Translations under genes and position numbers: made by a program
Notes under the pieces: generated by a model
What the model saw: the letters and a program-made list of their open reading frames with translations, nothing else
Told to the model about the DNA's origin: nothing
Databases searched by the model: none
Shown here: positions 2,239 through 20,609 of the stretch, one piece after another
Layout: the number at the start of each line of letters is the position of its first letter
Numbering within the stretch: the stretch's first letter is position 1
Assembly (NCBI GenBank): GCA_030681835.1
Contig: JAUXRN010000170.1
Location: 1 to 64,000, forward strand
From: Actinomycetota bacterium
GTDB taxonomy: Bacteria > Actinomycetota > Actinomycetes > S36-B12
Length of the DNA: 64,000 nt
Direction of reading: 5' to 3'

Positions 2239-4089
2239 TCAGTCCACGGCCAGTCGCGCGAGTTCGCGACGCGCCCGGGACCGCACGGATCCGTCGCTGT
2301 AGTCCCCGAAGGCCCGGCGACGGCGCGGCTCCCACCACGTTCGGAACTGCTCGCCACCGTCCGCGAGAGCGAACTCCACCCGGCGCCACAGTTCGTCCGA
2401 GTCCTCGGCCCACACGCCGGGATCGAGGTGCCGGGCCAGGGGCCGGGCGATGCCGGATGCATTGGCCGTGAAGTCGTGCACGACGCTGGGGATCCCGACC
2501 GTCAGTGCCTCGTCCACGAGCGAGGTGTACTTGGCCAGTACCAGGTCGGCCTGGGCGCAGAGCCGATAGGACTCGTTGAGGGTGCGGTAGTCGCGGCTCA
2601 GACTGACGTTGGCCGCGGTGCGCAATAGCGCTACGGAATCGGCCAGTCGCGGGTCCTCGACCCAGGCATCGCTCTTGCCGCGCACGACGATGCGCGCATC
2701 CGGTCGACGCTCGGCCAGTTCGGCGACATGGCGCAGGAAGTGGCCGACGGACTCGACGGACGTGGCAAGCGGATTTCCGCCCCACCCGGCCCCCGGGTGA
2801 GCGTGGTACGGCAGCACCACGATGCATCTCTGCCCGCGGTCGCGGGCCAGTTGCCACTCCGGGTGGGCCGGCGCACGCCGGTACTCGACCAGGAGGTCCG
2901 ACCGCCACATGCCCACAGGGGCGGCCGACCCGACAGCCACCGTGCGCGACGCCAAGGCCGCCTGCGCCGTCTCGTCACTGGCGGTCAGCAGGGTCCCGAC
3001 GGCGAACGGCTGTGATTCCGTGAGGATCGACGTGATCCGCTCGTTGATCGCCGCCGTACGCACTCCATTGGCCTCCAGTGCGAGCGTCAGGCTGATCGGC
3101 ACCTGGACCTCGTACGCCAGGACGGCCAAGCGCAGCGATGCGAACGAGTCCGCCAACCTGGCCTGCTGCGCCAGCGTCTGTGCGGCGAACGCCGCGAAGA
3201 ACCACTGGAATCGAGCCGGGTAACGCCAGCGGAAGCGGCGCCAGGACCCGGCGTAGAGAGTCACCGCGACTCGCACCCTGCTAGGGGCTCCACCCGCGTC
3301 GGGGTAGGCATGACGGATCCCCTCGGCGTTGCCCGGACCGCCGGTCCGGGCCATCATCAGCACGTTATCCGGGGCGAGATCCGCCAGGCCGTCGTCTCCC
3401 TGCAGCAGGTCGTAGGCGTAGAGCTGGCCGTAGGTCAAGCCTTGGTTGAGCACGAGCATGACGGTGGCCCGCATGGGATCAGCTGGCTCGCTCGCACCGA
3501 GCGGCCCCGCCACGGGGGCAGGTCCCGGCGGCGCAACTGGCGCTCCCCGGCGCGCAACTCGCCGGATCAGCCCCGCGGCTCCCCGTGCCCCTCTCGGGAT
3601 CCGGCCCGCGACCCTCCTGCCGTTCGAGGGATCCGACAGAAGCAGGTCGTCCCACCGGTTCGCCGCGACGAAGACGACGTCGTCGAGTCCATTGGTCCGG
3701 GCCCACAGGTCCGCGTAGTAGGCGTCAAGCGCACCGTCCGCGATGTCGCGCAGCAGGGCGCATCGAAGGGCGGCAGCCGCGCCCGGCGCCGCTGGCCACA
3801 ATCGCGCGTAGTGATCCAGCAGATCGCCCAATGTGGCGTCCGCGACCTTGTCGACCGCACGCCGCATCGCCGCGTCTGTCGAGGTGGGCCCCACCGGCAG
3901 CGACGAGGCGGCTGCGAGGTCGACGGGGCTGACCTTCAACGAGGCAAGCAGCCGTTGACCCAGCCGCGAGGTCATGCGCTCACGCAGGTACCACGATCTA
4001 CGTGATCCCAGGGACCACCTCAGCAGGCTGGGCAGTTGCGCCCAGCCAACATCGAGGTAGATCACACCGCGTGATCGTGACGCCTGCAC
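2239..4089 (-). CDS. Putative GT-B-fold surface-polysaccharide protein
   Basis: This is a 616-residue soluble protein with no recognised full-length family. The C-terminal third resembles CDP-glycerol glycerophosphotransferase and capsule-synthesis (KpsC/S-like) proteins. RIVVRGKSDAW is followed by CAQADLVLAKYTSLVDEALTVG and IPSVVHDFT, the usual donor-site pattern of a polar residue in a loop followed by an EA helix and a gly-Pro strand. The N-terminal half is poorly conserved. The start is GTG at 4089, with only a weak GAGAGG upstream; the ATG at codon 39 is a possible alternative. It is the upstream partner of the radical SAM gene and divergent from the methyltransferase at 4172. A transferase acting on surface glycan is an inference. 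Confidence 0.5.
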   Translation of the reverse strand: MQASRSRGVIYLDVGWAQLPSLLRWSLGSRRSWYLRERMTSRLGQRLLASLKVSPVDLAAASSLPVGPTSTDAAMRRAVDKVADATLGDLLDHYARLWPAAPGAAAALRCALLRDIADGALDAYYADLWARTNGLDDVVFVAANRWDDLLLSDPSNGRRVAGRIPRGARGAAGLIRRVARRGAPVAPPGPAPVAGPLGASEPADPMRATVMLVLNQGLTYGQLYAYDLLQGDDGLADLAPDNVLMMARTGGPGNAEGIRHAYPDAGGAPSRVRVAVTLYAGSWRRFRWRYPARFQWFFAAFAAQTLAQQARLADSFASLRLAVLAYEVQVPISLTLALEANGVRTAAINERITSILTESQPFAVGTLLTASDETAQAALASRTVAVGSAAPVGMWRSDLLVEYRRAPAHPEWQLARDRGQRCIVVLPYHAHPGAGWGGNPLATSVESVGHFLRHVAELAERRPDARIVVRGKSDAWVEDPRLADSVALLRTAANVSLSRDYRTLNESYRLCAQADLVLAKYTSLVDEALTVGIPSVVHDFTANASGIARPLARHLDPGVWAEDSDELWRRVEFALADGGEQFRTWWEPRRRRAFGDYSDGSVRSRARRELARLAVD

Positions 4090-4171: not shown

Positions 4172-5080
4172 ATGGGGCCCATGGCGGCTGGCGGCAGGAG
4201 AGTCGAGAGCCTGATCCAGCGGATCGGGCGCTGGTTCATGCCACTGCGGCTTGAGGTGCAGCGCGCTGTCGTCGATGCCCGTTTCGTGCGGGCACAGGGA
4301 CTCCCTCCGACCCTCGCGTCCCGTCTGGTGGGGCCGCCGGCATCCTTCGCCGCACGACTGCGCCGCCGGCAGCACGCGGTCTACCAGGACGTGATCCTCG
4401 CCAAGTACGCGCGGCTGCTGCCCCTGCACTACGCCCCCGGCGGCCGCGGCTACCAGACGGTCGCTCCCTCCAGCAGCGCCGAGAGACACGTGCGCTACGC
4501 CACCCAGACCTCCAGGTTGGCCTACTTCGCGGATCGCTACGGTGACCTCCTCGGCTATCGGGACGGGGACTCGTTTCTCGACCTGGGTTGCGGCACGGGA
4601 CAGAGCATCAGGACTCTGGTGGAGCGATTCCCCCAGTCCCGCGTAACGGGGATCGACGTCAATGCCGACGCGTTGGCGCTGATCCGTGAGTGCGAGCCGA
4701 GCGAACATCTGCGCCTGGAGGAAGGCAGCATCACCGACCAGCGCTTCCTCTCCGGAATCCTCACGACGGGTGCGGATCACATCGTGATGTCCCACGTCCT
4801 CTCGCTGCTGGTCGGCGCCAGCGCTGAGGAGACGCGGGCAAGCCGGCACCGCCTGCTGAGGACCCTGGCGGAGACGTGCACCAAGAGCGTCGTCGTCATT
4901 GACCGGTTTGGCTCAAGGGGCGAGTTCAGCGTCGAGATCGAGCAGGTCAATCGCGCATCGGTGGCGGATGACGTCCTCTCCTACTTCGACGATGACCTGG
5001 CGGGACGCGCGTTCCTTGTGCGGTCCCCGTCCACGGAAGCGATCCTCTTCATCAAGGATGGTCCGGCTGCCATTGGGTAG
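4172..5080 (+). CDS. Class I SAM-dependent methyltransferase
   Basis: This 302-residue protein has an N-terminal extension of about 130 residues rich in basic and aromatic residues. A Rossmann methyltransferase core follows, with motif I LDLGCGTG at 136-143 and an acidic motif II (VTGIDVNADAL). The acceptor cannot be told from sequence. It is immediately upstream of pseF, so a methylated sugar in the pseudaminic acid glycan is a fair guess. Translation starts at ATG 4172; a second ATG lies three codons later, and no strong ribosome binding site precedes either. The 82-nt gap before it separates it from the divergent gene and should hold promoters in both directions. Confidence 0.75.
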   Translation: MGPMAAGGRRVESLIQRIGRWFMPLRLEVQRAVVDARFVRAQGLPPTLASRLVGPPASFAARLRRRQHAVYQDVILAKYARLLPLHYAPGGRGYQTVAPSSSAERHVRYATQTSRLAYFADRYGDLLGYRDGDSFLDLGCGTGQSIRTLVERFPQSRVTGIDVNADALALIRECEPSEHLRLEEGSITDQRFLSGILTTGADHIVMSHVLSLLVGASAEETRASRHRLLRTLAETCTKSVVVIDRFGSRGEFSVEIEQVNRASVADDVLSYFDDDLAGRAFLVRSPSTEAILFIKDGPAAIG

Positions 5081-5104
5081 TGTCTCGATCGTGCAGACGG
5101 GCGC

Positions 5105-5110
5105 GGAGGT
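5105..5110 (+). promoter_or_regulatory. Strong ribosome binding site that decides the pseF start
   Basis: GGAGGT at 5105-5110 is a perfect Shine-Dalgarno core 7 nt before TTG 5118. It supports this TTG over the in-frame ATG at 5058 or GTG at 5091, neither of which has a comparable site. Confidence 0.65.
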
Positions 5111-5117
5111 CCATCGG

Positions 5118-5798
5118 TTGGCCGTCATACCGGCTCGCGGTGGCTCCAAGCGCATTCCTCGCAAGAACATCCGCGCGATGTCTGGCCGGCCACTCATGGC
5201 GTGGGCCATCGAGACCGCACTCGCGTCCGGCGAGTTCGACGAGGTGACCGTGTCCACGGACGACGACGAGATCGCGCGAATCGCGGAATCGATAGGCGCC
5301 ACCGTGCCTTTCCGCCGGCCCGCGGCTCTCGCAGACGACCACGCCTCGACCGCCTCGGTGATTGCGCACGCCACGTCCGAGATGAGAAGGCAGGGCCTGG
5401 CGCCCGACCTCGTTTGCTGCCTCTACCCGGCCGCCATCTTCGTGACGGCCGATGACCTGGCCGGCGCCCGGCGGCTCCTGGAGACGTCGACCCGTCCGTA
5501 TGCCGCTGCGGTCGTGCGCTACTCGCATCCGATCCAGCGGGCTCTCGCGTTGGACGAGGGTGGCGAACTGACTCCGGTCGACCCGGAGGGGCTGGCGATG
5601 CGCACGCAGGACCTGCCCAGCCGCTGGCACGATGCCGGGCAGTTCTACTGGGGCAGGACCGACGCATGGGTGGCAGGGCAGCCCATCCTCCCCAACGCGG
5701 TGGGGTACCCACTGGCTGAGGGAAGCGTGGTCGACATCGACACCGAAGAAGACTGGCGGGTAGCCGAGCGACTGCATTCCGTGAAGCTCAGGTCGTAG
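5118..5798 (+). CDS. pseF: Pseudaminic acid cytidylyltransferase PseF
   Basis: PseF activates pseudaminic acid with CTP to give CMP-pseudaminic acid, the donor for flagellar or surface glycosylation. The protein begins AVIPARGGSKRIPRKNIR, the nucleotide-binding motif of CMP-sugar synthetases. It also has FDEVTVSTDDDEIARIA, FRRPAALADDHAST and the PseF-type ending QDLPSRWHDAGQFYWG, which separates it from NeuA and LegF. From TTG 5118 it has 226 residues, slightly short for the family. The GTG at 5091 would add 9 residues. Its 3' end overlaps the convergent phosphatase gene by 11 nt. It is cotranscribed with the upstream methyltransferase, judging by the 37-nt gap. Confidence 0.88.
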   Translation: MAVIPARGGSKRIPRKNIRAMSGRPLMAWAIETALASGEFDEVTVSTDDDEIARIAESIGATVPFRRPAALADDHASTASVIAHATSEMRRQGLAPDLVCCLYPAAIFVTADDLAGARRLLETSTRPYAAAVVRYSHPIQRALALDEGGELTPVDPEGLAMRTQDLPSRWHDAGQFYWGRTDAWVAGQPILPNAVGYPLAEGSVVDIDTEEDWRVAERLHSVKLRS

Positions 5799-6576
5799 CC
5801 ATCCACGTCGCCACCCGACGCCCAAGCGCCGTGTCTGCGGCGAAGACCACGCCGTCGAGCTTCTCGTAGTCGCCGGCGAGCTCATAGGAGGCACCGCCCG
5901 GCAGACTCATGAATGCGCCGACCTCAAGGGTGACCGCCATCGCGGGGGCGACGTCCCAGTCGCGCACGACCACATCCTTCACGAACAGATCCGCGCGGCC
6001 GCTGGCCACGAGCGCCGCCTTGAGACCGATGCTCCCTGACTCGACGTACGAGTCCGTGCCCAGCCAGTGCATCACCCGCTCGCACACTCCCCTGGGCTCG
6101 GGGTAGTTGTCCACGACGACGACCGGATCGATCGCCGGGGCGCGATCGGGCAGCCGATCGCCGTTGAGAAAGGCTCCTGCGCCTCGCCTCGCCGTCCACG
6201 TCATGCCGAGGACGGGCGCGTGGATGGCGGCGAACTCGACGACCCCGGACGTGATCAGCGCCAGCTGGCAGACGAACCCAGCGTGGCCGCCGGACCAGCT
6301 TGCCGTGCCGTCGATCGGATCGATCAGCCAGTACGTCTCTGGTCTCTTCACGTCATGCGAAGCGTCTTCCTCGGACACCACGGGCACGCCCGGGTGACGG
6401 GCCTCGAGCAGTCCCACCAACATCTCGTGCGCGAGCCGGTCTGCCTGTTCCTGCGAACGTGCGCGATTCGCCGCTACGTCCGGTCCCAGTTCGTCCCGGA
6501 ACGCCGCCACCGCGTTTCCGACGTCTATCGCCGCACCCTCGGCTGCAGCGAACTCATCGGGCCCAGTGCGGGCCAT
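5788..6576 (-). CDS. Inositol-monophosphatase family phosphatase
   Basis: The 262-residue protein carries the family metal-binding motifs: VVSEED, WLIDPIDGTASW and, near the C terminus, WDVAPAMAV. These supply the Asp and Glu residues that hold Mg2+ and attack a phosphate monoester. Members cleave inositol phosphate, PAP (CysQ) or sugar phosphates. The start chosen is ATG 6576, which overlaps the pseI stop as TGATG; the longer GTG form at 6603 would overlap pseI by 28 nt. Its place as third gene after the ATP-grasp gene and pseI suggests it removes phosphate from a sugar or from a nonulosonate 9-phosphate, though canonical Pse synthesis needs no such step. Alternatively it could recycle PAP from the sulfotransferase encoded at 43.6 kb. 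Confidence 0.82.
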   Translation of the reverse strand: MARTGPDEFAAAEGAAIDVGNAVAAFRDELGPDVAANRARSQEQADRLAHEMLVGLLEARHPGVPVVSEEDASHDVKRPETYWLIDPIDGTASWSGGHAGFVCQLALITSGVVEFAAIHAPVLGMTWTARRGAGAFLNGDRLPDRAPAIDPVVVVDNYPEPRGVCERVMHWLGTDSYVESGSIGLKAALVASGRADLFVKDVVVRDWDVAPAMAVTLEVGAFMSLPGGASYELAGDYEKLDGVVFAADTALGRRVATWMATT

Positions 6577-7613
6577 CACTGCAGTGCATCCCAGGTGATC
6601 CACTCGTCCCGCTCGATCTCGCGCGCGGCGTGACGGCCGACCACGTGCGGCCTGAGGGACGGCGTGATCCCGAGCCCCGGCCGCTTGACCACGAGCATGC
6701 CATCTTCGATGACGGTCCCCGCGGCGATGTCGACCGCCGCATGCAGGCTGCGCCGGCCCTTCTCCGCCATCTCGCGCTCTTCGGGCCGGGGGCCGGCCTT
6801 GCGCCCGTCACCGAGTGCAGCCTCCACATCCCGAATGCGCCGGACCATCGCGGTGAGCTCAGCCGGCTCCATGGCGAACGGATGGTCCGGGCCGGGTGCC
6901 GAGCGGTCCAGGGTGAAGTGCTTCTCGATGAAGCAGGCCCCGAGAGCCACCGCAGCGATGCAGACCTGGTCGCCGAGAGTGTGGTCCGAGTAGCCGACAA
7001 GGGTGCCGAAGGCCGATCGCATGCTGGCCATCGCACGCAGGTTGGCGAGCGGAGCAGGTGCCGGGTAGAGGGACGTGCATTGAAGGAGGATGGCCTGGTC
7101 GTTGCCCTCAGCAGCCATGGCGTCGAGGGCCAACTGGATATCCATCCACGTCGCCATTCCTGTGGACATCACGATCGGCTTGCCGGTGCGGGCCATGGCC
7201 CCGACTAGTCCGGTGTCCGGCAAGTCGAAGGACGCCACCTTGTGGGTCGGCACGCCCAACGCGTCTAGCTCGAGGAGGGCGTCGACGTCGCATGGAGATG
7301 AGAAGAACTCGATCCCGTGGCCGGCCGCGTGCTCGAGCAGTCGCGGCTGCCATGACCGATCGAGTTCGAGTGACTCGATCAACGCATAGGTGTCCTGGCC
7401 ATCGAGGTACGTGAAGCCTGGAGTCCGTCGCGAGTAGTGGCTTGACGCGCGGAACGTCTGGAACTTGACCGCGTCCACGCCCGCCTCTGCGGCGGCATCG
7501 ATCAGCCGAAGTGCCTTGCCGAGATCCTGATCGTGGTTGGAGCCGACCTCCGCGGTGATGAACACCGGATGGCCGTCACCAACCCATCGGCCGCCTATCC
7601 TCACGTCGGTCAT
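6576..7613 (-). CDS. pseI: Pseudaminic acid synthase PseI (NeuB family)
   Basis: PseI condenses phosphoenolpyruvate with 6-deoxy-AltdiNAc to form pseudaminic acid in the cytosol. The TIM-barrel domain has ITAEVGSNHDQDLGKAL (E22, N26, H27) and DAVKFQTFRA. It also has KVASFDLPDTGLVGAMART and GKPIVMSTGMATW, whose SFD and STGMA pattern is that of PseI rather than NeuB. SDHTLGDQ, FIEKHFTLDR and PGPDHPFAMEP follow. The last ~55 residues form the SAF (antifreeze-like) domain that completes the active site of the dimer partner. At 345 residues the length is normal. The ATG overlaps the upstream ATP-grasp stop as ATGA, so the two are translationally coupled. Confidence 0.87.
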   Translation of the reverse strand: MTDVRIGGRWVGDGHPVFITAEVGSNHDQDLGKALRLIDAAAEAGVDAVKFQTFRASSHYSRRTPGFTYLDGQDTYALIESLELDRSWQPRLLEHAAGHGIEFFSSPCDVDALLELDALGVPTHKVASFDLPDTGLVGAMARTGKPIVMSTGMATWMDIQLALDAMAAEGNDQAILLQCTSLYPAPAPLANLRAMASMRSAFGTLVGYSDHTLGDQVCIAAVALGACFIEKHFTLDRSAPGPDHPFAMEPAELTAMVRRIRDVEAALGDGRKAGPRPEEREMAEKGRRSLHAAVDIAAGTVIEDGMLVVKRPGLGITPSLRPHVVGRHAAREIERDEWITWDALQ

Positions 7614-8569
7614 GCGTGCCGCTCCCCTGCCTCATTGCTGCCGCCGATCAGGACATTCGTCCAGTAGCGCTCGAGTCTGACCCCCGGCTCGAATCTCGCC
7701 AGGCCGCCGTCGCCGACGTCATCGAAGCAGAGTTCGAGGGGATCCAGGCCCGACGCAACCGCGAGGCACAAGGTGGTCGACACTCGCGGATTGATCTCGA
7801 AAGGCACGAAGCGACCGCTGCCATCGAGAATGCCCTGAACGTTGTAGCAGCCGGGCGTGGGCTCTGCAGCATGGATCGCCCGGCACGCGTCCTCGACAGC
7901 CGCGTGGGCCTGCCCCACGGCGCTGATCGTGATGCCGCGCTTGGCAAGCACACGAGCGGGGAACACCCCTCGCAGGGTGCCGCGCGCGTTCACCATGACC
8001 TGCACGGAGTACTCGTCGCCGGGGATGAGCTCCTGGACCACGTGCAAGCCCGCGTCCTCACCCACGTTCCCGCGGTGGTTGGCAAGCGACGTGGCGTCAT
8101 CCACGACGACGACGCCACGCGACCCGCGCCCACGCCGAGGCTTCACGATGGCGGGGAACCTGTCCCACCCGGCCGAGTCGGCCATGACTGCCGTGACCGG
8201 CAAGCGCACGCCGCTTTCGCTCAGGCGCTCGACGAAATGGAGCTTGTCCAGCATCGCCTCGACGAAGTCCTCGCTCGGTACCAGGATCGCCGTTGCCCCG
8301 AAGAGTGATCGGCCGCGCGCCAGAGCCGACAGTTCCTCGTCTACTCCCGGCACCACGACATCGATGGCCTCGCGCCGGCACAGAGCGGCCAGGGCCCCGA
8401 CGAAGCCCGGGTCCGATGCCATCGGGATCGCGTGGACGCGGGTGACCGGCACCGCGGGCGTCACCCGGCGCGGATCTGCGTCGCAGAAGTGCACCTCGTA
8501 GCGGGGGCTGAGCAGGTCCCACAGTGCCTGCGTTCCGGCCCCGCCTCCCCCGGTGAAGAGCACCTTCAC
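7610..8569 (-). CDS. ATP-grasp ligase of the carbamoyl-phosphate-synthase-like type
   Basis: The 319-residue protein starts with a Rossmann-like pre-ATP-grasp domain (VLFTGGGGAGTQALWDLL). It continues into an ATP-grasp fold with FPAIVKPRRGRGSRGVVVV as the ATP-lysine strand. GDEYSVQVMVNARG and the metal-binding FEINPRVSTT come next. Enzymes of this family join a carboxylate to an amine or thiol through an acyl phosphate. The start is GTG 8569, with GGGAGGAG well placed upstream; longer frames have no support. It is the first gene of a three-gene overlapping operon with pseI and the phosphatase. Amide-linked decoration of a Pse sugar is a possible role, but the sequence does not name the substrate. 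Confidence 0.8.
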   Translation of the reverse strand: MKVLFTGGGGAGTQALWDLLSPRYEVHFCDADPRRVTPAVPVTRVHAIPMASDPGFVGALAALCRREAIDVVVPGVDEELSALARGRSLFGATAILVPSEDFVEAMLDKLHFVERLSESGVRLPVTAVMADSAGWDRFPAIVKPRRGRGSRGVVVVDDATSLANHRGNVGEDAGLHVVQELIPGDEYSVQVMVNARGTLRGVFPARVLAKRGITISAVGQAHAAVEDACRAIHAAEPTPGCYNVQGILDGSGRFVPFEINPRVSTTLCLAVASGLDPLELCFDDVGDGGLARFEPGVRLERYWTNVLIGGSNEAGERHA

Positions 8570-8617
8570 GCGCTCTCCTCCCGCCCGCGGAACACGATTG
8601 CCGCGCAACCTCGCCTG

Positions 8618-8623
8618 TAGGCT
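8618..8623 (+). promoter_or_regulatory. -10 box of a leaderless promoter (PIG-L/pseGH operon)
   Basis: TAGGCT ends 6 nt before the GTG at 8630, placing the transcription start on the start codon. There is no ribosome binding site, in line with leaderless initiation. Confidence 0.5.
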
Positions 8624-8629
8624 ACCGGC

Positions 8630-9304
8630 GTGACGGTACTCGTGGTCGCGGCCCACCCGGACGACGAAACCCTGGGATGCGGCGGGGCCATCGCCAGGCA
8701 CACGGATGCCGGGGACACGGTCATAGTCATGTTCCTCGCCGACGGCGTGACTTCACGCGATCCGGATGCGGACCACGCCGCCGAACTAGCCCGGCGTCGC
8801 CAAGCGGCCGAAGCCGCCGCCCGGATCCTTGGCGTGGCCGACCTCGCATTCGGCGACCTTCCTGACAACCGCATGGACACCGTGCCCCTTCTGGAGATAG
8901 CACAGGCAGTCGAGTTGGCTGTCGCGTCATACGCCCCCACCACGGTGTACACGCACCACCGGCACGACCTGAACGTGGACCACCGCCGCACTCACGAGGC
9001 GGTGATGACGGCCTGCCGGCCGCAGCCCGGTTCGACGGTGGCCACGATCCTTGCCTTCGAGACCCCGTCCAGCACGGAGTGGCGTACCGCCGACCCCACG
9101 AGCGCATTCGCCCCCACCTGGTACGTCGACATCGGCGCGACCCTGGACCGGAAGATCCTGGCCCTGGAGGCATACGCCGAGGAGATGCGGCCGTGGCCGC
9201 ACCCGCGCTCGACGCAAGCCGTGCGGCATCTCGCTCATTGGCGGGGCTCAACCGTGGGTCGGGAGGCCGCAGAGGCGTTCGTCCTCACGCGCCACGTGTC
9301 ATGA
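8630..9304 (+). CDS. PIG-L family N-acetyl sugar deacetylase
   Basis: The protein has 224 residues. The zinc-binding motif AHPDDE sits at 8-13 and a second histidine-rich motif reads HHRHDLNVDHRRTHEA. Both are typical of PIG-L/LmbE deacetylases that remove N-acetyl groups from GlcNAc-type substrates using Zn2+. It starts at GTG 8630 directly after a TAGGCT box and has no Shine-Dalgarno, so it is probably leaderless. Its stop overlaps the pseGH start as ATGA. Coupling to the PseG-PseH fusion suggests it deacetylates an intermediate or the finished pseudaminic acid so that another N-acyl group can be added; this is inferred from context. Confidence 0.82.
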   Translation: MTVLVVAAHPDDETLGCGGAIARHTDAGDTVIVMFLADGVTSRDPDADHAAELARRRQAAEAAARILGVADLAFGDLPDNRMDTVPLLEIAQAVELAVASYAPTTVYTHHRHDLNVDHRRTHEAVMTACRPQPGSTVATILAFETPSSTEWRTADPTSAFAPTWYVDIGATLDRKILALEAYAEEMRPWPHPRSTQAVRHLAHWRGSTVGREAAEAFVLTRHVS

Positions 9305-10773
9305 GGGTCGTCTTCCGGGTCGACGCCTCCACGGCAATCGGCTCCGGCCACGTCATGAGGTGCCTGGCCCTGGCCGAGTCCCTCCGGGCACGCGGGTCAG
9401 ACGTCGGTTTCGTGTGCCGCCAGCAGGCGGGCGACCTCACCGGCCTGATCACCGCACGGGGCTTCGACGTCCACGTGCTGTCCGCTCCCGGTATCCAGGA
9501 CGCCGACGAGACTCTCCAATGCCTCGTCGAGCCGGTGGACTGGATGGTCGTGGACCACTATGGCCTCGGCCTGCCGTGGGAGGAGCGGATCCGCTCGAGG
9601 GCCGAGCAGGTACTCGTGATGGACGACCTCGCGCAACAGCGCCACGACTGCGACATCCTCGTCGATCCCATGTACCCAGGAGACGCCGAGCGCTACAACG
9701 GCCTCGTGCCACCGTCGGCCGCGCTCCTCCTTGGTCCGCGCTACGCGCAGATGGACGAGGCGTACGCCGTGCACGCGCACAGGCCCGCAATCCATCACAC
9801 GCCGGACCGCTTGCTGGTGTTCTTCGGTGGCAGCGACCTGCCCGACCTGACCGGCCGGACGTTGCGTGCAGTCACCGGGTCCGCGCTCGGCGTCTTGCCG
9901 GTCGAGGTCGTCGTGGGCCAGACGAACCCGCACGTGCGCAGACTCGCCGAGCTGGTCTCCCGGCGCCCAGGAACGACCATTCATGGCCCCCAGCCGAGCC
10001 TGGCTGCCCTGATGTCCACCTGCACGGTCGCCGCGGGTGCAGGAGGCGTCACGCTGTGGGAGCGCATGTGCATGGGGCTCGCGGGAATAGTGGTCAGTCT
10101 CGCTGACAACCAGGTGCCATCGTGCCGGGCGCTCGACGAGGCCGGTTACGTCACGTATCTCGGGACGTCTGACGACGTGACCGAGGCGCACCTGTCGGCG
10201 GGGATACACGGCGTCCTGGCTGATCCCGAGGGCGCCCGGAACCAAGCCGAGCTCGGCCAGGCCCTGGTCGATGGCCTCGGGGCGTTGCGCGTCGGTGAGA
10301 CGATGCAGCCCACCCCCACCTCTGGCCTGGTGCTCAGGAATGCGCGGCCGGCGGATCGCGGGCTCCTCTTCGGCTGGGCCAATGACCCCGACGTCCGCAG
10401 GCACTCATTCAGCCCCGAGGCGATCACCTGGGCGGCCCACTGCGCCTGGTTCTCCAACCGCCTGTCCGAGCCAAGAACACGCATGTTCGTCATGGAGGCT
10501 GCCGGCCTGCCGGTGGGACAGGCTCGTTTCGACCTGGACGATTCGGGTGCTGTTCTGGACTACTCGGTCGACGAGGCCTTTCGCGGCCGTGGGTGGGGGG
10601 CGGCGCTCCTCTCCCTCGCCTGCGCTCGATTGCGATCCGAGACGGCCCTCCCGATTCGCGCCGAGACGCAGCGCGACAACGCGGCCTCGATCCATGCCCT
10701 CGAGCATGCTGGATTCCGGATCCACGCGGACGCTGACGTCCGGGCCGGGGCGGTCCTTTTAGTGCTCGAGTGA
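9301..10773 (+). CDS. pseG/pseH: PseG-PseH fusion: UDP-sugar hydrolase plus GNAT N-acetyltransferase
   Basis: Two consecutive enzymes of pseudaminic acid synthesis are joined in one 490-residue chain. Residues 1 to ~330 are PseG, a GT-B-fold hydrolase that releases UDP from UDP-6-deoxy-AltdiNAc. The GSGHVMRCLALA motif places the histidine at position 17, the same number as the catalytic base of Campylobacter PseG. LLVFFGGSDLPD and AGAGGVTLWERMCMG form the UDP site. Residues ~343-490 are a GNAT domain (PseH) with the acetyl-CoA loop RGRGWGAALL at 429-438 and an N..S...LE..GF ending. PseH acetylates the 4-amino group one step before PseG acts, so the fusion could channel the intermediate. The start ATG overlaps the PIG-L stop. 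The 3' end overlaps convergent pseC by 15 nt. Confidence 0.88.
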   Translation: MRVVFRVDASTAIGSGHVMRCLALAESLRARGSDVGFVCRQQAGDLTGLITARGFDVHVLSAPGIQDADETLQCLVEPVDWMVVDHYGLGLPWEERIRSRAEQVLVMDDLAQQRHDCDILVDPMYPGDAERYNGLVPPSAALLLGPRYAQMDEAYAVHAHRPAIHHTPDRLLVFFGGSDLPDLTGRTLRAVTGSALGVLPVEVVVGQTNPHVRRLAELVSRRPGTTIHGPQPSLAALMSTCTVAAGAGGVTLWERMCMGLAGIVVSLADNQVPSCRALDEAGYVTYLGTSDDVTEAHLSAGIHGVLADPEGARNQAELGQALVDGLGALRVGETMQPTPTSGLVLRNARPADRGLLFGWANDPDVRRHSFSPEAITWAAHCAWFSNRLSEPRTRMFVMEAAGLPVGQARFDLDDSGAVLDYSVDEAFRGRGWGAALLSLACARLRSETALPIRAETQRDNAASIHALEHAGFRIHADADVRAGAVLLVLE

Positions 10774-11886
10774 CGCGATGACGGCGTCTCCGACGACCGC
10801 CACCTGTTCGTCGGTGAGGGTCGTCGACATGGGCAGCGAGATCTCCCGGCGGTAGAACTCCTCGGCTACCGGGCACAGCCCGCGCGGGAAGCCCAGGTCC
10901 GCGAACGCCGGGTGCCAGTAGGCGGGCAGGTAGTTGACCTGGACTCCCACCCCGACCTCGCGCAGTCGCTCGAAGACGGCCCGTCGGCGGTTCACAGGAA
11001 CCCTCAGCGGGTAGAGGTGCCACATCGGATCGACATGAGGGCGCTGCGCCGGGATCTCGAGATCGGCACGGCCAGCGAAGGCGGCATCATGGCTAGCCTT
11101 CACCTCGGCTCGACGCGCCTTGAAGGCGGCTAGGCGGGTCAACTGGCTCGACCCAAGGGCGGCAAGCACATCCGGAAGCCGGTAGTTCAGCCCGAAGGCG
11201 TGCACCTCCTGATGCCACGGTCCCTCGCCGGTTATGCGATGGCGGGAGGGTTCTCGCACAAGCCCCTGCCGGGCGAACTCACGGGCCCGCTGCAATGTGG
11301 CGGCATCGCGGACGGCCACGGCGCCGCCCTCCGCCGTCGTGATGTTCTTGGTGGGGAAGAACGAGAAGGCCGTGATGTCGGCCAGGGACCCCACCGGTCT
11401 GCCCTTGTACGTGGAGCCGAGGCTGTGCGCGGCATCCTCGATGAGGATCAAGCCGTGCTGGTCCGCGATTGCCCGGAGGGCATCCATGTCGGCGGGATGA
11501 CCGGCGTAGTCCACCGCCACGATCGCCTTGGTACGGCTGGTGATGGCGGCCTCCACGGCGCCGGGGTCGATGTTGGCCGTGTCCGAGCAGACGTCCGCGA
11601 ACACGATGGTCGCGCCGAGTGCCACCGCCGTCGCCTGTGTGGCGATGAACGTCATCGGGGGCGTGATCACCTCATCACCAGGGCCGACTCCGGCAGCCGC
11701 GTAGGCCACGTGCAGGGCAGCGGTACCCGAAGAGACCGCGACTACTGGCGTGCCTCCGGTGAAGCCCCGCAGGTCGGCCTCGAACTGCTCGAGGACGGGA
11801 CCCGTGGTCAGCCACTCGCCGCGCAGGACGGCGGACACGGCAGCGACGTCGTCCTCGTCTATGTCATGGTGGCCGTACGGGATCAC
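10759..11886 (-). CDS. pseC: UDP-4-amino-sugar aminotransferase PseC
   Basis: PseC transfers an amino group from glutamate to the 4-keto sugar made by PseB, using pyridoxal phosphate. The 375-residue protein belongs to the DegT/DnrJ/EryC1 family. It opens with the PseC-type signature IPYGHHDIDEDDVAAV and GEWLTTGP. Also visible are VSSGTAALHVA, IEDAAHSLGS with the cofactor-binding aspartate D151, and SFFPTKNITTAEGG with the Schiff-base lysine K180. It starts at GTG 11886, four nucleotides after the pseB stop, so pseB and pseC form one operon. No strong Shine-Dalgarno is seen, which fits coupling to pseB. Confidence 0.9.
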   Translation of the reverse strand: MIPYGHHDIDEDDVAAVSAVLRGEWLTTGPVLEQFEADLRGFTGGTPVVAVSSGTAALHVAYAAAGVGPGDEVITPPMTFIATQATAVALGATIVFADVCSDTANIDPGAVEAAITSRTKAIVAVDYAGHPADMDALRAIADQHGLILIEDAAHSLGSTYKGRPVGSLADITAFSFFPTKNITTAEGGAVAVRDAATLQRAREFARQGLVREPSRHRITGEGPWHQEVHAFGLNYRLPDVLAALGSSQLTRLAAFKARRAEVKASHDAAFAGRADLEIPAQRPHVDPMWHLYPLRVPVNRRRAVFERLREVGVGVQVNYLPAYWHPAFADLGFPRGLCPVAEEFYRREISLPMSTTLTDEQVAVVGDAVIASLEH

Positions 11887-11890
11887 GGAG

Positions 11891-12868
11891 TCACTCGATG
11901 CCGAGGATCGACCGCAGTTCGGCCGGGGTCATCCACAGGTCGTTTGTATCCGACCGGTAGCTGAAGCCCAGCGGAACCGGCTCGCCGTCGACGGGCGTGA
12001 AGCCCCAGTCCGCAATTGTCGGTGTCACGACGTAGCGATCCTCCTGGCGGACCGTGCGGTGGCTGTCGTCCGGGGAGATCATCTCCTCGTGCAGCTTCTC
12101 CCCCGGGCGGATGCCGAACGGAACCGTCGGGTACCCGGGCGCGATCGCCTCCACGAGGTCCACGAGCTTCATGCTGGGGATGCGTGGCACGTAGAGCTCG
12201 CCACCTGCCATGAGCTCGAAGGAATCGACCACGAACTCGACGGCCTGCGGGAGGGTGATCCAGAAGCGCGTCATCCTCGGGTCGGTGACAGGCAGCGGCT
12301 CGCCGGTCAGCATCTTCTCGCGGAAGAACGGCACGACCGAGCCACGGCTGCCCATGACGTTGCCGTACCGCACGACGGACATCCGCGTCTCGTGATCGTG
12401 GGCGTAATGGTTGGCCGCGACGAACAGCTTGTCCGCCGTGAGCTTGGTGGCCCCGTACAGGTTGATGGGCGACGAGGCCTTGTCAGTCGACAAGGCCACC
12501 ACCTTCCGCACGCCCTCGTCGATCGCCGCGTCGATCACGTTCTGGCTGCCCAGGACATTCGTCTTCACGAACTCGAAAGGGTTGTACTCAGCCGTATCGA
12601 CCTGCTTCAGGGCGGCAGCGTGGACGACATAGTCAATTCCCTTGAACGCACGGTGCAAGCGATCGCGATCACGGATGTCGCCGAGGAACCAGCGCAGCCG
12701 GCGGTCGTCATTGAACGCGGCCCGCATCTCGTACTGCTTGAGTTCGTCGCGCGAGAGGACGGCAATTCGCTTGGGATCCAGATGGTCGAGTGCGTACCGG
12801 ACGAACGCCCTTCCGAACGACCCCGTCCCACCCGTGATGAGAATGGAGGAGCCTTCGAGCTCGGACAT
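11891..12868 (-). CDS. pseB: UDP-GlcNAc 4,6-dehydratase (inverting) PseB
   Basis: PseB performs the first committed step to pseudaminic acid, converting UDP-GlcNAc to a 4-keto-6-deoxy-L-altro sugar by dehydration and C5 inversion. The 325-residue SDR has GGTGSFG at 13-19 for NADP binding, STDK at 127-130 giving the Asp-Lys catalytic pair, and NLYGATK with Y138 and K142. AALKQVDTAEYNPFE and VVRYGNVMGSRGSV are further PseB family blocks. The ATG at 12868 is preceded by GACGAGG. A -10-like TATCCT lies 35 nt upstream. It leads the pseBC operon. Confidence 0.9.
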   Translation of the reverse strand: MSELEGSSILITGGTGSFGRAFVRYALDHLDPKRIAVLSRDELKQYEMRAAFNDDRRLRWFLGDIRDRDRLHRAFKGIDYVVHAAALKQVDTAEYNPFEFVKTNVLGSQNVIDAAIDEGVRKVVALSTDKASSPINLYGATKLTADKLFVAANHYAHDHETRMSVVRYGNVMGSRGSVVPFFREKMLTGEPLPVTDPRMTRFWITLPQAVEFVVDSFELMAGGELYVPRIPSMKLVDLVEAIAPGYPTVPFGIRPGEKLHEEMISPDDSHRTVRQEDRYVVTPTIADWGFTPVDGEPVPLGFSYRSDTNDLWMTPAELRSILGIE

Positions 12869-15672: not shown

Positions 15673-16971
15673 TCAGCTCCTCAAGGTGAACAGCGGCACC
15701 AACGTGTCGCACTCGAGCCTCGCCTGCACGTCGCCGTCGGCCAGCGCGCCGACGATCACGTCCAGCGACTCGGCATAGGCCCCCGCGCAATGGTCGATGT
15801 CGACTGACGTGAACGCGGTGGTGACATCGTGCGTCCCCAGGACGAGCACCCCTCGTCGAAGCATCTCCTGCAGGAAGAGCGTCTTGACTTCGTTGAGTGT
15901 CGTGGCATCGGCGATGGACCACTTCAGGAAGAGCCACGCCGGATGCCCGGTGAACGACAGGACCTCCCGCGACTCCAGGGAACGCGCGGCATCGATGGCG
16001 GTCTGGAGGGACTGGCCGACCGACGCAAGCGTGTCGGTCGCCTCGCCGGATGCCATCCTGCGCAGGACCACCCTCGCGGCCGCCAGCGAGAGCGTCTCAC
16101 CGCCATAGGTACCGGAGAAGAAGATCCGCTCCATGAGCATCATCAGGTCCCTGCGGCCCATGACCGCGGACAGCGGCAGGCCGTTCGCCAGGCCCTTGCC
16201 GAATGCCGCAAGGTCAGGAGTGACACCGAAGAACTCCTGCGCACCGCCGGGCGCGAAGCGGAAGCCAGTGAGCATCTCGTCAAACACCAGGATGATCCCG
16301 CGATCCTGAGTGATGCGTCGCACACCCTCGAGGTAGCCCGGGTCCGGGAACGTGGACGTCATCGGCTCCATGATCAGGGCGGCCACCCTGTCCGGGTGCT
16401 GGGCGATGACCCGTTCGATCGCGGCAAGGTCGTTGTACGGCACGGCGTGCGTCAGTGCCTGAGTGGCGGCGGGGACTCCGAGGTTCCTCGTCGTGGAGCC
16501 GATGAACCAGTCCTGCCACCCGTGGTACCCGCACGCGATGACGTGCTCGCGCCCGGTGGCAGCGCGGGCCAGGCGGATGGCGGCCGACGTCGCATCGGTG
16601 CCGTTCTTCGCGAACCGGACCATCTCGGCGCATGGGATGAGTTCGACGAGACGGGAAGCGACCTCCTCCTCGAGTGGATGCGACAAGGACAGGGTGACCC
16701 CGTCGCGAAGCTGCCGGATGACGGCCTCATTGACCTCCTCATCCCCGTAGCCGAGCACCACGGCGCCCAGGGAACTGACGAGGTCGACGTACTCGTTGCC
16801 GTCGACGTCCCAGGTACGGCTGCCGTGGGCTCGGGAGGCGAAGAGCGGTGCCGCGCCGACCGGGTACTGGGTCCGGGACTTGCTGAATGTCTGTGACCCG
16901 AGCGGGATGACCCGCTCGGCCCGCTCGAGTTGGAGTACGGACTGCTGATACCGAGCCATGAGGTCACGCAT
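15673..16971 (-). CDS. Class III aminotransferase related to glutamate-1-semialdehyde aminomutase
   Basis: The 432-residue PLP enzyme has AKNGTDATSAAIRLARA, the cofactor-binding GYHGWQDW, ILVFDEMLTGFRF with D231, and AFGKGLANG with the Schiff-base lysine K259. The true haem-pathway HemL has the same fold, but homologues in polysaccharide loci act on other substrates. Here the gene overlaps the SpsF-like cytidylyltransferase by 8 nt and precedes an FkbM methyltransferase, which argues for a sugar-acid or sugar-like carbonyl substrate rather than tetrapyrrole synthesis. The ATG at 16971 fits this coupling. The precise reaction is not predictable. Confidence 0.8.
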   Translation of the reverse strand: MRDLMARYQQSVLQLERAERVIPLGSQTFSKSRTQYPVGAAPLFASRAHGSRTWDVDGNEYVDLVSSLGAVVLGYGDEEVNEAVIRQLRDGVTLSLSHPLEEEVASRLVELIPCAEMVRFAKNGTDATSAAIRLARAATGREHVIACGYHGWQDWFIGSTTRNLGVPAATQALTHAVPYNDLAAIERVIAQHPDRVAALIMEPMTSTFPDPGYLEGVRRITQDRGIILVFDEMLTGFRFAPGGAQEFFGVTPDLAAFGKGLANGLPLSAVMGRRDLMMLMERIFFSGTYGGETLSLAAARVVLRRMASGEATDTLASVGQSLQTAIDAARSLESREVLSFTGHPAWLFLKWSIADATTLNEVKTLFLQEMLRRGVLVLGTHDVTTAFTSVDIDHCAGAYAESLDVIVGALADGDVQARLECDTLVPLFTLRS

Positions 16972-17722
16972 GCATTGCCCCCGTGTCGAGACCTGCGAGG
17001 GCCGCGTTGCGTGCCTCGTCAGCGGTCGTCCTGTTCAGTTCCGGTCGGCGTTCCAGGAGCTCGAGGATGGCGTCGACGTCGAAGGACGGATCAGCCGGAA
17101 AGAGTTCCTCGTACACAGCCTTCACGAACTCGTAGTCGGGCCGCGTGTCGACGGTCCAGCGCAGTGAAGAGAGGTCGCGCGGCCCGGTGTGGCTCGCGAG
17201 CCGGTAGCGGTCGGGGCGCCGGTAGACCCCCAACGTCACGTGCTCACGCTCAGCAGGATCGGTGCTGACGGCCGCCACATCGAGAAGCACGTGGGCGCGT
17301 ACCACTTCGGCATCGAGCCCATCCGGGAACGTCGGCGTCAGCGTGTTCGAGCAGTAGTCCGCCTCGACGGACCCGAACTGCTCGATGACAGCATCGATGA
17401 CCGCCGGCGAGGCTAGTGGGCAGTCGGCGGTGAGCCGGACGACGACGTCCGGCGCGAACTCCTCGACGGCGAGGACGAAGCGCTGCAGCACGTCATCCTG
17501 CGGGCCGCGCACGAGCCCAGTGCCCTGAGTGCGCGCCAGTTCGGCGATGACGTCGTCCCTCGGGTCCGTGGACGTGGCGATAACGATCCCGTCGATCCGA
17601 TCCGCGCGGCGGATCCTCTCCAGCTGCCGGACCAGCATGGGCTCGCCCATGAGCGGGAGCATCGCCTTTCCGGGAAGCCGCGTCGACGACATCCGCGCCT
17701 GCAGCACCGCGAGCGTGGTCAC
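16964..17722 (-). CDS. SpsF-like cytidylyltransferase family protein
   Basis: The 252-residue protein begins with TLAVLQARMSSTRLPGKAML, the nucleotide-binding motif of the SpsF branch of CMP-sugar synthetases. IVIATSTDPRDDVIAELA, RGPQDDVLQRF and VVRLTADCPLASP follow, all typical of this branch. SpsF proteins are thought to activate keto-sugar acids or related sugars with CTP. It starts at GTG 17722 with GGGAGGAT upstream. Next to the second NeuB-type synthase gene at 20.6 kb, it is the natural candidate to activate that enzyme's product, because PseF already serves the Pse branch. Confidence 0.82.
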   Translation of the reverse strand: MTTLAVLQARMSSTRLPGKAMLPLMGEPMLVRQLERIRRADRIDGIVIATSTDPRDDVIAELARTQGTGLVRGPQDDVLQRFVLAVEEFAPDVVVRLTADCPLASPAVIDAVIEQFGSVEADYCSNTLTPTFPDGLDAEVVRAHVLLDVAAVSTDPAEREHVTLGVYRRPDRYRLASHTGPRDLSSLRWTVDTRPDYEFVKAVYEELFPADPSFDVDAILELLERRPELNRTTADEARNAALAGLDTGAMHA

Positions 17723-17741
17723 CTGCAGATCCTCCCAGCCG

Positions 17742-18608
17742 TCACCGGGACCACAGACGCGGGTCCACGAGGCCCGGGTCGTGGGACCGCACGGCGGCCC
17801 AGTCCAGGTCGACCGGGGAGAGCGCCCATGCCTGCCCGATCTCGCGCAGTTCGCCAGCCGACGTCACCCCCACGACCACCTGGTCGACCCAGGCAATTGA
17901 CCTGAGGAAGGACAGGGCCGCACGTATGGGCGAGACCGCCAAGCCGGCGCAGGCGCGATGGAACCGGATCACGTCCGGGTGCGCCGACAGGGCGGCACCG
18001 GACGTCGCGTCGACGAGGAGGCCCTGCAGGAAGGCACTTCGCACCTGAAGCTCGGTGCCCGCCGCGCCCAGCTCTGACATCAGTGGCTCTCCCACCAGCC
18101 GTTGGTCCAGTGCATTGAGGGGCACCTGCACGGCGCCGAGGGCGGGGAACAGCCGGGCGGCGCGCTCAATATCGACCCGGTCGTAGGCGGAGATACCCAC
18201 GCGCCCCACCAGTCCCTCGCGCATGAGCACGTCGAGCTCCCTAGCGGTCCCGGCGGCCAGGTCGTCGTCGAGGTCGAACCAGTCGTGGACCAGGCAGGCA
18301 TGCACCCGATCCACGCCGAGGCGGTCGAGGGACTCCTCCAGCTGGCCGCGGACCGGCAGGTCCGCCGCGGCTCCACCGAAGACCTTCGTCGTGATCGCGA
18401 ACCCGGACGCCCACGGCCGCAGGCGTTCTTGAGCGTGCCCGTAGCCGTGGGCGGGATCAGCGGTGCGGTGGGTGTCGACCGCATCGATCCCGACGCGTCG
18501 CGCCTCCTCGACGATCGCGGATACGTCCGCATCGGAGAGCACGCCGGTGCGATTGGTCACGCCGTACGTCCCGCCCCACTGCGCGGTACCGAGAGCAAGC
18601 GAAGCCAC
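17742..18608 (-). CDS. Aldo/keto reductase of the polysaccharide-cluster type
   Basis: The 288-residue TIM-barrel oxidoreductase opens with LALGTAQWGGTYGVTNRTG, the pattern seen in aldo/keto reductases of surface-sugar loci. D, Y, K and H of the catalytic tetrad can be placed in GIDAVDTHRT, AHGYGHAQERL, AITTKVFGG and ACLVHDW. It would reduce or oxidise a sugar carbonyl with NADPH. It starts at GTG 18608, nine nucleotides after the stop of the next reductase, and is followed 19 nt later by the SpsF-like gene. The conserved pairing with SpsF and a GSA-type aminotransferase suggests a shared pathway. Confidence 0.8.
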   Translation of the reverse strand: MASLALGTAQWGGTYGVTNRTGVLSDADVSAIVEEARRVGIDAVDTHRTADPAHGYGHAQERLRPWASGFAITTKVFGGAAADLPVRGQLEESLDRLGVDRVHACLVHDWFDLDDDLAAGTARELDVLMREGLVGRVGISAYDRVDIERAARLFPALGAVQVPLNALDQRLVGEPLMSELGAAGTELQVRSAFLQGLLVDATSGAALSAHPDVIRFHRACAGLAVSPIRAALSFLRSIAWVDQVVVGVTSAGELREIGQAWALSPVDLDWAAVRSHDPGLVDPRLWSR

Positions 18609-18617
18609 CGGACGACC

Positions 18618-19592: not shown

Positions 19593-19598
19593 GCACTC

Positions 19599-19604
19599 AG
19601 AGTA
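19599..19604 (-). promoter_or_regulatory. -10 box of a leaderless promoter (aldo/keto reductase operon)
   Basis: TACTCT ends 6 nt before GTG 19592 on the minus strand. It fixes the start of the reductase and faces a divergent TACACT box at 19671-19676. Confidence 0.5.
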
Positions 19605-19670
19605 GGGGCGCACCTGCGCGCTGGCGGTCGGCAATTGCCGCGGACATCAATTGATTACGCGGGTCCTGTC

Positions 19671-19676
19671 TACACT
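19671..19676 (+). promoter_or_regulatory. -10 box upstream of the RmlD-like gene
   Basis: TACACT ends 8 nt before ATG 19685, so the transcript would have a leader of about one nucleotide or none. No ribosome binding site is present. Confidence 0.45.
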
Positions 19677-19684
19677 CCACAACC

Positions 19685-20593: not shown

Positions 20594-20609
20594 GGGGATG
20601 CCGCCAGCC

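Follow-up and report, generated by a model that had tools for sequence, protein, structure and literature searches.

The window analysed here is a 64,000-nucleotide stretch of an actinomycetotal draft genome (G000; assembly GCA_030681835.1, 269 contigs, completeness 96.01, contamination 5.27), positions 1 to 64,000 of contig C95 (JAUXRN010000170.1). Between positions 5091 and 12868 it encodes enzymes of pseudaminic acid (Pse) synthesis, among which lie genes for an ATP-grasp ligase, an inositol monophosphatase (IMPase)-family phosphatase and a PIG-L de-N-acetylase. The order is PseF (plus strand); IMPase, a PseI-like NeuB and ATP-grasp (minus); PIG-L and a PseG–PseH fusion (plus); and PseC and PseB (minus):

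4172..5080, plus strand: class I S-adenosylmethionine-dependent (SAM) methyltransferase beside PseF (PF08242)
5091..5798, plus strand: PseF, CMP-Pse synthetase, start uncertain (TIGR03584, 266.6 bits)
5788..6576, minus strand: IMPase-family phosphatase of the cassette subfamily (PF00459)
6576..7613, minus strand: PseI-like NeuB, condensing sugar and phosphoenolpyruvate (PEP), of the cassette clade (PF03102 and SAF)
7610..8569, minus strand: ATP-grasp ligase, GTG start at 8569 (PF02655)
8630..9304, plus strand: PIG-L de-N-acetylase (PF02585)
9301..10773, plus strand: PseG–PseH fusion, UDP-sugar hydrolase and GNAT N-acetyltransferase (TIGR03590 and PF13302)
10759..11886, minus strand: PseC aminotransferase, actinobacterial lineage (TIGR03588, 398.0 bits; tree)
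11891..12868, minus strand: PseB, UDP-N-acetylglucosamine (UDP-GlcNAc) 4,6-dehydratase, lineage of the window's own family (TIGR03589, 474.7 bits; tree)

The genes for ATP-grasp, NeuB and IMPase form one overlapping minus-strand block (8569–5788). Direct reading of the junctions confirmed the overlaps described in an earlier note on this DNA, including the coupling of PIG-L to pseGH: an ATGA is common to the ATP-grasp stop and the NeuB start, the NeuB stop and the IMPase start together form TGATG, and a further ATGA is common to the PIG-L stop and the PseGH start. The best reading of the IMPase is 5788–6576, with its ATG inside the TGATG. The ATP-grasp and PIG-L (GTG at 8630) genes are divergent, with 60 bp between them. 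The cassette frames contain no internal stops and have a coding-type G+C content at third codon positions (GC3, 0.82–0.87).

All four proteins of interest pass their Pfam cutoffs: ATP-grasp (PF02655, 49.1 bits; cutoff 23.2), NeuB (PF03102, 274.1; 22.1), IMPase (PF00459, 99.2; 27) and PIG-L (PF02585, 103.2; 28.2). PseB (474.7; 407.75), PseG (258.7; 153.55) and PseF (266.6; 205.7) exceed their NCBIfam cutoffs, and PseC, for which TIGR03588 is the top-scoring model, falls slightly under its own (398.0; 423.5). In the PseG–PseH fusion, TIGR03590 is over its cutoff at residues 1–272 and GNAT (PF13302) lies at 343–473; this GNAT domain scores far under the PseH model TIGR03585 (28.1; 93.1). The NeuB is under the cutoffs of both PseI (TIGR03586, 288.1; 340.25) and NeuB (333.1; 399.65). 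The other enzymes were compared with models of described subfamilies: PIG-L is under the cutoffs for BshB1 (64.5; 182.5), BshB2 (47.3; 195.25), MshB (21.5; 224.35) and Mca (22.6; 277.15), and IMPase is under those for CysQ (100.5; 228.8), HisN (71.2; 275.15) and inositol-1-monophosphatase (53.5; 332).

Residues expected of active enzymes are kept. In the ATP-grasp, K110, K144, E259, N261 and R263, presumably the ATP/Mg residues, are invariant in eight aligned rows. In PIG-L, H9, D11, D12 and H118 are invariant in 12 rows and the AHPDDE...DH motif is preserved; we take these to be the zinc and catalytic residues of this zinc motif. E78, D95, D98 and D217, presumably the metal site of the IMPase, are invariant across the IMPases of seven loci found with an IMPase motif (see below), which share 32–49% identity with that of the window. 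The predicted structure of the ATP-grasp (pLDDT 82.9) has an ATP-grasp fold. Its best match is the carbamoyl-phosphate synthase (CPS)-like 2pn1 (Z 27.8), followed by GAR synthetase (25.2) and, further down, biotin carboxylases, PurK, PylC (Z 22.9) and L-amino acid ligase (Z 22.4). PylC, the L-amino acid ligases and GAR synthetase use the same fold to join a carboxylate to an amine (Z 22–25); they differ in substrates and share only about 14–18% identity with the window protein. These matches fit amide formation by the modelled protein without proving it. By sequence, the ATP-grasp matches one Protein Data Bank (PDB) entry, named CPS large subunit; given this and the broad set of ATP-grasp folds matched, it does not group with a characterised enzyme of unrelated metabolism, an outcome that would have spoken against the N-acylated Pse proposed in the earlier note.

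To see where these genes recur, loci were picked in three ways: with the window ATP-grasp in its own class, with a DNA motif for the IMPase only, and with an ATP-grasp profile (A4). The window ATP-grasp matched 33 of 394 genomes of its class at 1e-15, G000 included, and 37 loci were read (the other 32 class matches and five of the 16 matching genomes of another search). The best match outside G000, locus L067 of genome G263, was chosen as such before its neighbours were inspected, and carries PseB-like, PIG-L, ATP-grasp, SDR and IMPase genes in a row; the remaining 31 class matches score lower, most of them in other contexts. PIG-L directly adjoins ATP-grasp in seven of the 37 loci, L067 among them. 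In L082, L083, L086, L050 and L080, the immediate neighbour of the ATP-grasp is a PIG-L protein whose N-terminal part is long and, where read (L082 and L086), resembles a response-regulator receiver domain. The IMPase motif, applied blind to the other cassette genes, gave eight matches in the genome collection, in Verrucomicrobiota, Alphaproteobacteria, Geomonas and Marinimicrobia. Seven of the eight genomes have the ATP-grasp subfamily (all except G506), seven the PIG-L subfamily (all except G502) and six PseG over cutoff (all except G506 and G507). Profile A4, which includes rows from these two routes, was run against 385 genomes of Pinisolibacter's class and gave four matches at 1e-50, Pinisolibacter itself among them. 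The three new alphaproteobacterial genomes (G803, G865 and, more weakly, G527) all have the ATP-grasp amid pse genes, with PIG-L in 3/3 and IMPase in 2/3. Thus, PIG-L is present in 4/4 and IMPase in 3/4 of the genomes reached through the ATP-grasp (G263, G803, G865 and G527).

Spacing is tight. ATP-grasp and IMPase share a contig in ten genomes, at most 6 kb apart in nine and 9.7 kb apart in G865. IMPase and PIG-L share one in nine, and are 2–32 bp apart in six of these (G501, G503, G504, G505, G865 and G527); in G506, outside that list, they are 26 bp apart. Other searches gave less: no relative was confirmed with the window ATP-grasp in the genome contig collection, the 195 genomes of Geomonas's class held no ATP-grasp match at 1e-50 except Geomonas itself, and plasmids yielded no IMPase at 1e-20 and eight ATP-grasp records of 28–31% identity. 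In the Cytobacillus and Priestia plasmid loci L137 and L138, a PIG-L of the same subfamily precedes GT4, a gene annotated as carbamoyl-phosphate synthase and a further gene for either a kinase or a phosphotransferase. Representative layouts (fusions in brackets) are:

G505, Geomonas: PseB-PseC-PseF-PseH-ATP-grasp-NeuB-SDR-IMPase-PIG-L; PseG on a separate contig
G504, Stappia: PseC-PseF-PseG-(PseH+ATP-grasp)-NeuB-SDR-IMPase-PIG-L
G503, Pinisolibacter: PIG-L-IMPase-SDR-NeuB-ATP-grasp; PseG, PseH, PseB and PseC about 6–12 kb further on
G500, Verrucomicrobiota: PseB-PseC-PseF-PIG-L-(PseG+formyltransferase-like)-(ATP-grasp+NeuB); IMPase on a separate contig
G501: PseG/H-like-ATP-grasp-methyltransferase-NeuB-SDR-IMPase-PIG-L
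G527: PseB-PseC-AKR (aldo-keto reductase)-aminotransferase/cytidylyltransferase-PseG/H-like-ATP-grasp-IMPase-PIG-L-NeuB

Two of these genomes fuse the CPS-like ATP-grasp to a Pse enzyme: to PseH (119.2 bits, over cutoff) in a single 509-amino-acid frame in Stappia, and to NeuB in a 755-amino-acid frame in the Verrucomicrobiota metagenome-assembled genome (MAG). The PIG-L gene lies next to that for PseG, or overlaps it, in the window, in G500 and on a Mariluticola plasmid. In a second locus type, that of G501 and G502, the consecutive genes are those for ATP-grasp, a methyltransferase, another kind of NeuB, SDR and IMPase. In L119 (2370–4568, minus strand), PseG and a formyltransferase-like domain form a single 732-amino-acid open frame. 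The cassette loci L133 (9515–12055) and L139 (12583–15341) also carry a WbuX N-acetyl sugar amidotransferase (297.8 bits in L133) and/or HisF/HisH-like genes (read by eye), which suggests acetamidino groups in the same glycan.

Loci chosen by their NeuB instead are nearly free of the set. The class controls were 17 of the best-scoring matches to the window NeuB (G364 and G422, within the best 17, were left out), and ATP-grasp, IMPase and PIG-L are each found in 0/17. Alphaproteobacterial plasmid loci chosen in the same way have ATP-grasp in 0/10, IMPase in 0/10 and PIG-L in 1/10 (L208), giving 0/27, 0/27 and 1/27 overall. One control (L155) spans just 5 kb, both sets include incomplete pse loci, and a weaker ATP-grasp match occurs outside the control locus in the genomes G150, G176 and G496. 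Against these 27, the genomes reached through the ATP-grasp are enriched in PIG-L (4/4 versus 1/27, Fisher p 1.6e-4) and IMPase (3/4 versus 0/27, p 8.9e-4), values that are only indicative because the compared groups differ in phylum; within alphaproteobacteria alone they are 0.014 and 0.038. On the basis of the controls, we reject a chance gathering of the cassette genes; conservation of this rare set near pse genes, which the earlier note had asked about, extends across phyla.

The Pse genes of the window do not share one history. Its NeuB is 62% identical to those of Geomonas and Pinisolibacter and at most 47% identical to those in the sampled genomes of its own class, and it falls into a seven-row clade made up of cassette NeuBs only (SH-aLRT 99). 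PseG groups with the cassette and formyl-type loci, away from the seven class controls that yielded a PseG row (99). PseB, by contrast, falls together with two genomes of the family to which the window belongs (95), and PseC clusters with ten class controls (100); two controls of that family (L144 and L145) fall on the cassette side of the PseC tree and are the same two that share the window's PseB group. Best scores divide likewise, being higher in controls than in cassette loci for PseB (548 versus 387), PseC (508 versus 312) and PseF (270 versus 220), and lower for PseG (60 versus 219) and NeuB (300 versus 493). The trees are quick ones with SH-aLRT as sole support, built after score and length filters from 37 PseI, 19 PseG, 27 PseB and 25 PseC rows, the PseG rows covering only 7/17 class controls. 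Judged by these trees and scores, the locus is a mosaic, with NeuB and PseG from the side of the cassette loci and PseB and PseC from actinobacteria, and the window ‘pseI’ belongs to the cassette. Since the only PseI-level NeuB of G503 and G505 lies in the same clade, we infer for it the role of a Pse-type synthase rather than membership in PseI.

Pse has two amines that could be re-acylated: the C7 amine, made by PseC and acetylated by PseH, and the C5 amine, which comes from GlcNAc already acetylated. A second acylating enzyme is present in all ten genomes that combine PIG-L, ATP-grasp and pse genes. It is a PseH over cutoff in four (G503, G504, G505 and G865); in another four (the window, G501, G803 and G527), PseG is fused to a PseH-like domain of lower score. 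The stretches read from the remaining two, G500 and G507, have no PseH and instead a formyltransferase-like protein, under curated cutoffs, which is fused to PseG in G500 and overlaps PIG-L in G507. Formyl analogues of the PIG-L step are seen in L134 and L135; the pse loci on plasmids of Synechococcus NIES-970 and Mariluticola have the same PIG-L subfamily and a formyltransferase-like protein, no ATP-grasp, and a PseH-like protein (47.6 bits) or WbqC, respectively. With one acylator per amine plus a deacetylase, and with only the C5 amine in need of deacetylation first, this bookkeeping points to C5. Furthermore, PseG and NeuB track the ligase and deacetylase and PseF does not, suggesting that the substrate is already altered when it reaches PseG and NeuB.

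On balance, we consider the block to be probably an N-acyl exchange cassette in the Pse pathway, in which the exchange most likely takes place at C5 and no later than the NeuB step. PseB and PseC would make UDP-4-amino-4,6-dideoxy-N-acetyl-altrosamine, and the PseH domain would acetylate, as normally, the amine newly introduced at C4 (which becomes C7 of Pse). PIG-L would then strip the GlcNAc-derived acetyl group (hexose C2, which becomes C5 of Pse), and the ATP-grasp would activate a carboxylic acid with ATP to an acyl phosphate and join it to the freed amine. PseG would release the hexose from UDP, the cassette NeuB, a putative Pse synthase of its own clade tolerant of the new substituent, would condense it with PEP, and PseF would couple the product to CMP. 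The phosphatase may act on a phosphorylated precursor to release the acid, or it may dephosphorylate the newly joined acyl group; as a guess, the acid could be glycerate or another small hydroxy acid. The earlier proposal of an N-acyl (or aminoacyl) Pse made by a deacetylase and an ATP-grasp ligase thus gains support from co-occurrence across phyla, from the single cases of an ATP-grasp fused to PseH and of one fused to NeuB and from the PIG-L loci in which a formyltransferase-like protein takes the acylator's place. The pointer to C5, the cassette membership of ‘pseI’ and the phosphatase as the recurring partner of the ATP-grasp were not part of that note.

The phosphatase is the least explained component. 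That it is paired with the ATP-grasp in pse loci and, within a single actinobacterial family (f22), in 17 further loci suggests that it serves the ligase. We also entertain, as a speculative and rather unlikely elaboration, a phosphate-handle module: the ATP-grasp would join a phosphorylated hydroxy acid (for example, 3-phosphoglycerate) to the amine opened by PIG-L and the IMPase would then take off the phosphate, so that Pse with an N-glyceroyl or similar group at C5 results; such a module would move between phyla with its own NeuB, replacing the host PseI, and the ATP-grasp–IMPase pair alone would serve another amine in family f22. A role of the IMPase as the 9-phosphate phosphatase of a NANS-like route was rejected by inference from the presence of PseG, genes for phosphorylated hexoses not having been searched for.

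Several observations weigh against an exchange cassette dedicated to Pse. The G263 trio lies beside a PseB-like gene in a 19.9-kb stretch without PseC, PseG or PseI, and in 17 loci, exactly all the matches from f22, the ATP-grasp gene is next to an IMPase gene or overlaps it, and the stretch contains no pse gene; the cassette enzymes are therefore not tied to Pse alone. (These are L060–L064 and L068–L079; L076 and L079, both read by eye, have a HAD-like gene just upstream.) The set is also incomplete in places: G502 has ATP-grasp and IMPase without a PIG-L of this subfamily, G803 has no cassette-type IMPase and G506 no ATP-grasp. The PseH domains of the window (28.1 bits) and G527 (26.7 bits) are far under the curated cutoff, those of G501 and G803 miss E 1e-5 and were recognised solely through their resemblance to that of the window, the formyltransferase-like protein of G507 has no Pfam match, and the PseH search was limited to the fetched stretches. 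Each type of ATP-grasp fusion was seen once, biotin carboxylases and PurK stand beside amine ligases among the fold matches, and the comparison genomes are mostly MAGs or otherwise poorly documented assemblies.

These points bear on three other explanations. PIG-L, ATP-grasp and IMPase might act on another of the glycan's amino sugars, their clustering with pse genes being incidental. We regard this as quite improbable: it would suit G263, in whose stretch the ATP-grasp is the sole recognised acylator, and the Priestia and Cytobacillus plasmids, where a PIG-L of 40–41% identity accompanies a CPS-like gene and a glycosyltransferase with no pse gene annotated in the stretch, but it sits poorly with the fusions to PseH and NeuB, with the cassette ancestry common to NeuB and PseG and with the contact between PIG-L and PseG genes described above. 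A real exchange that takes place at C7, or only once CMP-Pse or the glycan has been made, is more improbable still. The ATP-grasp of G502, which is not accompanied by PIG-L, might take the amine made by PseC as its direct substrate, and the mono-acetyl Pse of Shewanella oneidensis suggests such direct use (PMC3765264). However, eight genomes retain PseH or a PseH-like domain together with PIG-L and two have a formyltransferase-like stand-in for it, so that stripping C7 again would be pointless, and the cassette is tracked by PseG and NeuB, not by PseF.

The explanation to which we give the least credence is that the cassette NeuB makes a 3-deoxy-ulosonic acid (phosphate) instead of Pse, which the IMPase dephosphorylates and the ATP-grasp ligates to a Pse amine. 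The S. oneidensis sfmA–E genes, as the consulted parts of PMC3765264 describe them, join a NeuB to a thiamine pyrophosphate (TPP) enzyme, an SDR-type reductase, a methyltransferase and an ATP-grasp, and the flagellin there bears mono-N-acetyl Pse with a nitrogen-free, methylated moiety of 236–264 Da; the second locus type of G501 and G502 is of comparable content. Nevertheless, G500, G503 and G505 (draft assemblies) have PseG and one PseI-level NeuB each (further matches: none, 34 bits and 72 bits), which is the cassette NeuB and so seems to be needed for Pse itself; the single NeuB of G500 is of the second type, fused to ATP-grasp.

An N-acyl exchange at C5 has precedents in kind. The sections of PMC3068675 available to us report Pse5(2,3-di-O-methylglyceroyl)7Ac on Campylobacter jejuni flagellin, linked to Cj1295, which its authors propose removes the C5 acetyl group. 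As in the proposed cassette, the C5 acetyl of Pse is exchanged for another acyl group and an added deacylase is invoked; unlike it, Cj1295 is aminopeptidase-like rather than PIG-L, and these sections describe no ATP-grasp or IMPase partner. The end-product type, a C5 acyl variant, is thus known from C. jejuni, and the enzymes here differ. In S. oneidensis, the accessible portion of PMC3765264 identifies sfmE as an ATP-grasp gene in Pse-type flagellin modification; sfmABCDE resembles the window in placing an ATP-grasp in a NeuB cluster needed for a Pse-type modification other than Pse5Ac7Ac. It differs in that SfmE is an ATP-grasp_4 protein (412 amino acids) and that of the window an ATP-grasp_3, which scores under the cutoff of the ATP-grasp_4 model PF13535 (24.4 bits; 27), and in that the five sfm genes include a TPP enzyme and no PIG-L or IMPase; the authors found no clear PseH, PseG, PseI or PseF orthologues, according to the same portion. 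The Synechococcus NIES-970 and Mariluticola loci are alike in having the same PIG-L subfamily (54% and 52% identity) inside pse genes and near an acylator, and differ in a formyltransferase-like protein (with WbqC in Mariluticola) in place of the ATP-grasp and in the lack of an IMPase in the stretch; their function, too, is presumed from gene content. In the literature searched, mostly outside subscription papers, none pairs ‘pseudaminic acid’ with ‘PIG-L’ or ‘inositol monophosphatase’, three papers mention it together with ‘ATP-grasp’, and ‘nonulosonic’ occurs with ‘ATP-grasp’ nowhere beyond the Shewanella paper (PMC3765264). None of grasp, ligase, deacetylase, PIG-L, glutam and carbamoyl occurs in the main text of a 2026 article on the Pse loci of Clostridium (PMC13317340). 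The proposed cassette is known in kind, from the C. jejuni C5 variant, sfmE and the formyl-type loci; the parts and the recurring phosphatase are new.

Around the locus, the methyltransferase beside PseF is a possible decorator, its link to the cluster unproven. At the cluster edge, a 616-amino-acid open reading frame (2239–4089, minus strand) has no Pfam or NCBIfam match at 0.001 and is possibly a glycosyltransferase; L067:4511–6019 is likewise without a Pfam match. A second nonulosonate-like set lies at 15673–21692, with a class-III (GSA-type) aminotransferase, a CMP-sugar transferase, two aldo-keto reductases, an RmlD-type SDR (19685–20593, plus strand) and a second NeuB (20610–21692, plus strand). 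Relatives of its aminotransferase/cytidylyltransferase pair also occur in L141, L124, L159 and L206.

Acyl variation of nonulosonic acids helps to determine what phages, antibodies and lectins recognise on bacterial surfaces and flagella. To our knowledge, the enzymes behind many of the N-acyl variants have yet to be assigned. The cassette gives a testable route to C5-exchanged Pse, and the ATP-grasp, IMPase and PIG-L trio a genome marker from which to predict it; the ligase might also serve for making N-acyl Pse analogues. For the cell, the acyl exchange would probably provide an unusual surface sugar.

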